Positions 35,717 to 35,868 of a DNA stretch of 64,000 bases are shown one piece after another. The stretch comes from a bacterium (lineage in GTDB: Bacteria > Patescibacteriota > Microgenomatia > UBA1406 > GWC2-37-13), in NCBI GenBank assembly GCA_021833625.1, contig JAKBEU010000002.1, positions 124,001-188,000 on the forward strand, given 5' to 3'. Within the stretch, counting starts at the first letter, position 1, and every line of letters starts with the position of its first letter. The position numbers were made by a program, and so were the translations under genes. The notes beneath the pieces are model-generated. The model did not search any database. It saw only the letters and a list, made by a program, of their open reading frames with translations, and was not told the DNA's origin.

Positions 35717-35747
35717 AAAAAAAATCCCCCGTTTCTTACTTCGGGGG
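35717..35747 (-). terminator. attenuator terminator of the argH operon
   Basis: Read on the minus strand, CCCCCG (35747-35742), a 10-base loop, CGGGGG (35731-35726), one A and eight U form an intrinsic terminator. It lies between the leader peptide and argH, where it would stop transcription before the operon unless the competing helix forms. Confidence 0.85.
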
Positions 35748-35839
35748 TAGGGTAATTCGCTTAAAGAAAGTTTTTATGCCACACGGCACCTATTACCCCA
35801 CCTGGAGGTTCGCCTTGAAGCGCTGGACTGGAATAATAG
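35746..35839 (-). promoter_or_regulatory. competing leader helices (anti-antiterminator and antiterminator)
   Basis: Two helices share one strand. Helix A pairs 35839-35830 with 35799-35790 (10 bp, two G-U pairs). Helix B pairs 35802-35792 with 35756-35746 (11 bp, one G-U pair). Helix B uses the arm 35799-35792 of helix A and two bases (35747 and 35746) of the terminator stem. Helix A therefore favours termination and helix B disfavours it. The overlap of B with the terminator is short, which is the weakest part of the model; a shifted pairing of 35799-35795 with 35748-35744 would overlap it by four. Confidence 0.65.
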
Positions 35840-35848
35840 ATGTAACAT
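35774..35848 (-). CDS. arginine-rich leader peptide of the argH operon (24 aa)
   Basis: An ATG 11 bases after the -10 box opens a 24-codon frame ending in TAA at 35774. Arginine occupies residues 12, 13, 16, 20 and 22 (codons AGG, CGA, AGG, AGG, CGU), so five of eleven residues in that stretch are Arg, and the pair at 12-13 comes first. A ribosome paused at residue 12 would cover the region just before helix B and leave helix B free to form. A ribosome reaching the stop would cover part of it. This is the layout of known amino-acid attenuators. No Shine-Dalgarno sequence is seen, in line with the leaderless style of this genome. Confidence 0.68.
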   Translation of the reverse strand: MLHLLFQSSASRRTSRWGNRCRVA

Positions 35849-35859
35849 ACTTAAGTACC

Positions 35860-35868
35860 ATTATATCA
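35860..35868 (-). promoter_or_regulatory. extended -10 promoter of the argH leader
   Basis: TGATATAAT on the minus strand (35868-35860) is a perfect extended -10 element, with a weak -35 (TTTTCT) 17 bases upstream. The transcript should start near 35853, about 5 bases before the leader peptide ATG. Confidence 0.75.

Follow-up and report, generated by a model that had tools for sequence, protein, structure and literature searches.

A conserved arginine-codon leader peptide and a predicted transcription attenuator in front of argH-argG-argS in a CPR bacterium

To our knowledge, how genes are regulated is almost entirely unknown in the Patescibacteria, or CPR, a large and mostly uncultured group of bacteria. 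Here, we investigated a 64,000-nucleotide stretch of DNA (the window) from one such ultra-small bacterium, in which three genes on the minus strand encode argininosuccinate lyase (argH, 35690-34332), argininosuccinate synthase (argG, 34330-33074, with its start placed at MNTKTSYI) and arginyl-tRNA synthetase (argS, 33048-31354). Their identities come from the NCBIfam models TIGR00838, NF001770 and TIGR00456, respectively, each above its cut-off. An intrinsic terminator sits between a short leader frame and argH, the first structural gene. What, then, decides whether transcription continues into the operon? The decision almost certainly lies with translation of the leader, although we have no expression data.

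The locus has the parts of an attenuator, all on the minus strand. An extended -10 promoter (TGATATAAT, 35868-35860), also found before the leader ATG in relatives, precedes a leader peptide gene of 24 codons and a stop (MLHLLFQSSASRRTSRWGNRCRVA, 35848-35774), whose homologues occur in 24 other intact leaders. Arg occupies codons 12 (AGG), 13 (CGA), 16, 20 and 22, and we take the pair at codons 12-13 (35815-35810) as the putative sensor. Strand 1, the protector (35842-35829), immediately follows the start codon and pairs with 35800-35787 to form the 14 bp helix A. Helix B, the antiterminator, joins 35802-35792 to strand 3 (35756-35746) through 11 bp, including one G-U. The two helices share strand 2 (35802-35787) and are therefore mutually exclusive. 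Strand 3 overlaps the terminator stem at 35747-35746. The terminator (35747-35717) reads CCCCCG, AAGTAAGAAA, CGGGGG, A and T8, with its stem at 35747-35742 and 35731-35726 and the T-run at 35724-35717. An initial annotation of this DNA had already proposed the promoter, the 24-codon frame with its five Arg codons and the terminator with eight U, and we found each of them at the place given. Its helix B, excluding helix A, was confirmed as well; its helix A (35830-35839 with 35790-35799) exists but had been drawn too short. An alternative frame at 35861-35793 was dropped, as its ATG overlaps the -10 box.

The window sequence alone is no proof of a switch. By single-sequence folding, the leader folds no better than shuffled sequence (z scores of -0.46 and -0.72). 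Furthermore, ATG frames of 18-27 codons with at least five Arg are not very rare in the window (12 of 314). The proof must therefore come from comparative data.

We found argH genes of about 50% identity in 12 other genomes of the family, at 13 loci plus a fourteenth lacking the 5' end of the gene. A protein-pattern search of contigs with a single argH had recovered no relatives; with an alignment, the search succeeded. Nine of the 12 genomes share the upstream architecture (L031-L037, L002 and L003): a -10 box, 6-8 nt, ATG, a short frame that contains Arg-Arg, strand 2 (GGGGARGGTARTATTTTT or one of its variants), a stop codon, 21-23 nt and a GC-rich terminator. Strand 2, the stop, the spacing after it and the terminator hold in eight of these, L002 being degenerate. 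The remaining two genomes with an intact argH 5' end, G030 (L004) and G081 (L038, L050), carry a T-box instead (RF00230, E-values of 4e-13 to 2e-5, under the gathering score). Thus, at this level of identity, every argH relative without a T-box whose 5' end is on the contig has the leader, if only a degenerate one in L002. In that genome (G034), the leader reads MFILSATTNLRKIAW, and interruptions break the frames of both argH and argG; operon and switch seem to decay together, unless these are assembly errors. In L036 (G075), the Arg leader is separated from argH by two successive terminator-like hairpins with T-runs.

In addition to collecting leaders by argH homology, we searched 373 genomes of the class with R1, a covariance model built on the leader. 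R1 matched 23 of them at E<=0.5, including 18 at E<=2e-4. Beyond the window, the comparative set has 24 intact leaders and a degenerate one, most of them from Candidatus Roizmanbacteria (Microgenomates), the source of the closest leaders; one leader was also found in another family (G406, L069). L073 and L074, both matched only weakly by the model, lacked a suitable frame and were discarded. On a quality-weighted sample of the phylum, R1 matched only the window, so the Arg leader is mainly a trait of the window's family, with isolated or uncertain cases in families f2 and f19.

The Arg-Arg pair is present in all 24 tabulated leaders with intact frames. The first site is encoded by AGG in 18, CGA in four and AGA in two, and the second by CGA in nine, AGA in nine, AGG in four and CGT in two, so that every codon change at both sites is synonymous. 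AGG is the rarest Arg codon in the long frames of the window (9.4%), yet it is the commonest at the first leader site. The pair nearly always stands 10 codons before the stop; the distance is 11 in the window and in L003 and L037, where the run is longer. These patterns meet the expectation for a short frame whose Arg codons are under selection; translation itself is inferred.

Support for helix A is strong. In the alignment, 91.9% of its cells are paired, compared with 38-66% in slid controls; eight of 10 pairs changed on both sides, and none of 500 shuffles reached any of five measures. This alignment had been fitted to the model. Helix B is paired in 86.9% of cells (39-62% in slid versions), and its column covariation is modest (on the better measures, 13-19 of 500 shuffles did as well) because its strands are nearly invariant. 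A crossed-partner comparison, which needs no alignment, was made for both helices. Strands bind their own partners better than those of other leaders, at -17.3 versus -13.6 kcal/mol for helix A and -20.2 versus -16.6 kcal/mol for helix B, with none of 20000 permutations as good in either case; relatedness was not corrected for. The initial annotation had named a weak point, the overlap of helix B with the terminator stem by only two bases. This is true of the window and is a peculiarity of that copy, since in most relatives the best duplex of helix B takes in 3-6 bases of the stem. The L035 and L069 leaders have a stronger helix B. Homologous leaders lacking both an Arg-rich frame and covarying helices would have spoken against the proposal; the comparison with relatives gave the opposite outcome, as the Arg frame and the covarying helix A were kept.

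We then modeled the ribosome by blocking the bases beneath it and truncating each leader before the 3' arm of the terminator exists, as during transcription. With the first Arg codon in the A site, folding predicted a mean of 17.1 helix-B pairs, compared with 11.0 without a ribosome and 4.5 with a ribosome at the stop. The corresponding values for helix A were 0.0, 9.7 and 2.0. This pattern is what a trp-type attenuator needs, and in these models the mutually exclusive helices are placed as switching by a stalled ribosome would require. The result depends on the assumed ribosome footprint, and helix B falls to 8.0 pairs with the second Arg codon in the A site. At full-length equilibrium, the terminator was favored even with a stalled ribosome (mean of 0.88), and masking caused little loss of it. 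Therefore, the switch must be kinetic and be decided during transcription.

The trp operon of Escherichia coli and the his operon of Salmonella are controlled by ribosome-mediated transcription attenuation. We hold with high confidence, though without transcript or expression data, that the leader is an attenuator of this type that senses charged tRNA-Arg and controls argH-argG-argS. This is the reading that the initial annotation had offered, and the relatives support it through their Arg-Arg codons, covarying helix A, matched helix B and terminator. Transcription would begin at the leader ATG or a few bases before it, and a ribosome would load on a leaderless or nearly leaderless mRNA. When Arg-tRNA is short, the ribosome is inferred to stall with the first of the two Arg codons in its A site, where it would cover strand 1 and leave strand 2 free to form helix B. 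Helix B would then occupy the 5' arm of the terminator, and the operon would be transcribed. When Arg-tRNA is plentiful, the ribosome would reach the leader stop within the helix-B hairpin loop, blocking helix B and letting the terminator form. Without translation, helix A would form first and termination would again be favored. The frame, the conservation of its Arg codons, the covariation of helix A, the matched helix B, the terminator and the target genes could be established from sequence; the transcription start, the leaderless initiation, the stall and the direction of regulation are inferred.

The start of the leader frame is part of this prediction. Transcription of the sigma-70 type starts about 6-8 nt past the -10 box. 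The ATG follows the box by 6-8 nt in most relatives, by 9-14 nt in a few and by 11 nt in the window. The 5' UTR of the relatives would thus be 0-2 nt, judged by promoter geometry only. In the window, with no mapped 5' ends, transcription is expected to start near 35853, which would give a 5' UTR of about 4-5 nt. Neither this inferred near-leaderless start nor the regulon was predicted by the initial annotation, and the same is true of the Thr and Tyr leaders described below.

The genes downstream of the leaders, argH, argG and argS, make or charge arginine, and argH is not always the first of them. Arg leaders precede argG (L054, L057 and L075), a divergent argH (L059 and L068), argS directly (L066) and operons of other genes leading to argS (L056, L058, L060, L064, L070 and L076), in which argS is the last or a late gene. 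In G071, a single leader serves argG, argH, an M20 peptidase gene, two carbamoyltransferase genes, the second confirmed by Pfam, and argS. A generic scan yielded one additional Arg leader, L046, again with Arg-Arg. The leader is therefore a movable arginine control element and not merely a part of argH.

A scan of aminoacyl-tRNA synthetase loci revealed similar leaders for other amino acids. The window's own genome has a Thr-run leader, MITFFSITTTTFS, with a terminator before thrS (L171/L257). Further examples before thrS are MNIQYIITTTTFS, MFIMKFVSIITTTTAF, MFNLRLVNTTTTTFL, MRFFLVMKTTTTISC, MSLLNFVIVTTTTCPR and MKIVRCIITTTQFTA, with MKLNFVTTTTNLS and MNTRNCFTTTTTSCP in sister families. We looked at 30 thrS loci of the window's family for terminator-linked short frames with at least three identical residues in a row; the residue was Thr in seven, and the only other run was an overlapping frame at the same site. 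At L168, L169, L176, L261, L269, L272, L275 and L282, the Thr-run leader before thrS has an antiterminator-like strand and then a terminator downstream. In the window's own genome (G000, contig C2 near 122,000, outside the window; L171:490-620), the leader ATG lies 5 nt past the end of a tRNA-Val(GAC) gene, and tRNA 3' processing might create its leaderless 5' end. For Tyr, G009 (L242/L287) has tandem leaders, MKTHFSSTYYYFQL then MKNKSKLARQVSYYYYQLLYRRVIM, ahead of an operon with tyrS. Similar Tyr-run leaders occur in G090 (L300) and G091 (L301), in tandem again in the latter. These operons carry an archaeal-type tyrS; each leader has its own terminator, and several ATGs lie 6-9 nt past a -10-like box. 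The count of Tyr leaders rests on run length, and others may have been missed. Two tandem leaders with YY and YYYY (L071/L161, G037) stand before a gene for an 852-aa protein with a PPDK_N domain, whose link to tyrosine is unclear.

Among other Microgenomates argH genes that have a regulator upstream, most carry a T-box and no leader; matches to RF00230 had E-values of 4e-13 to 4e-4. We found T-boxes before argH in Levybacteria, Daviesbacteria, Gottesmanbacteria and others, by Rfam at L084, L102 and L104 and by motif at L081, L101, L111, L123, L140 and L142. Those at L038, L050, L004, L084, L102 and L104 fall under the Rfam gathering threshold, and standard annotation would miss them. At that threshold, neither the window nor the leader loci had a match to RF00230, and the leaders matched no other Rfam family; the threshold also misses true T-boxes in Microgenomates, and inspection by eye found no T-box motif in the leaders either. 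Furthermore, ArgR (PF01316) was detected in none of 30 relatives by a search that was positive in nine of 14 control genomes.

We weighed three other explanations. The first is a constitutive 5' region whose frame arose by chance and whose terminator leaks, which would fit the insignificant single-sequence fold and the ease with which Arg-containing frames arise by chance. However, the whole set of features is conserved in 24 other leaders, before several different Arg genes, which already contradicts this idea, and we give it practically no weight. A riboswitch that binds a metabolite or tRNA, such as a T-box, with alternative helices and an incidental frame, deserves slightly more attention, as riboswitches, too, have exclusive helices and a terminator, and T-boxes occupy the same place in other Microgenomates. 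We still regard it as very improbable, because the leaders have no Rfam match at the gathering threshold and no T-box motif, sequence beyond the helices and coding positions is unconserved, the Arg codons persist through synonymous changes, and Thr and Tyr runs mark the leaders of thrS and tyrS operons.

Equally hard to sustain is nascent-peptide arrest, in which the peptide, and not tRNA supply, would stall the ribosome when arginine or a related molecule is present. SpeFL, an ornithine-sensing arrest switch, is an example of this. The leader peptide is indeed partly conserved (LL/LS..., SRR..GEGSIFMA), with Arg-Arg in mid-frame. However, GEGSIFMA is dictated by the pairing of strand 2 and is lost in L003, L037, L070, L072, L076 and the window, all of which retain Arg-Arg, and the length and residues ahead of Arg-Arg vary.

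Attenuation through charged tRNA-Arg, our preferred reading, resembles trp and his leader-peptide attenuation (PMC3896937) in its short leader with codons for the product, three competing strands and an intrinsic terminator before the first gene. Unlike those systems, it serves an arginine and argS operon in a CPR host, its frame is predicted to be leaderless or nearly so, without a Shine-Dalgarno sequence, strand 1 directly follows the leader ATG, and the antiterminator loop contains the leader stop. Leader peptides made from an mRNA that starts at its own ATG are known from Sinorhizobium meliloti trpL (PMC7298713) and from mycobacterial polycysteine ORFs (Canestrari 2020, via PMC13236596). 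These leaderless attenuators concern other amino acids and phyla and are not known to serve aminoacyl-tRNA synthetase operons for Arg, Thr or Tyr. A pause at two consecutive or nearby Arg codons also sets expression in Salmonella orf34/speF (PMC6386406) and Staphylococcus aureus rbfL (PMC13009471). However, the former acts through Rho, RNase G and speF translation and the latter by blocking the rbf ribosome-binding site, neither being a terminator/antiterminator switch for arginine biosynthesis. T-box leaders likewise sense tRNA charging, but they bind uncharged tRNA directly and have no peptide. A literature search that did not cover preprints, and subscription papers only sparsely, found no relevant report of a leader peptide or attenuator in CPR or Patescibacteria. 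Thus, as far as we searched, the mechanism is known, and the Arg and argS targets, the inferred near-leaderless design and the host group are new.

We think it likely, with less assurance than for the locus itself, that leaderless leader-peptide attenuation is general in Roizmanbacteria and related Microgenomates for aminoacyl-tRNA synthetase and amino-acid genes (so far those of Arg, Thr and Tyr), without ArgR, and with the Arg version at the site that T-boxes occupy in sister lineages. T-box and leader peptide would be two unrelated devices for the same operon in sister lineages. The Arg leader suggests that CPR cells sense amino-acid supply through tRNA charging, and it provides an arginine transcription attenuator that targets argS, along with a set of short leader peptides overlooked by gene callers. 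As such an attenuator needs close coupling of translation and transcription, its conservation is evidence that reduced CPR cells couple the two. Finally, Arg leaders at L072 (G025), L064 (G067) and L159 (G009) precede a conserved pair of genes for a GNAT acetyltransferase and a metallo-beta-lactamase-like protein, followed by argS in G067 and G009; the two are possibly an unrecognized arginine-related enzyme pair.
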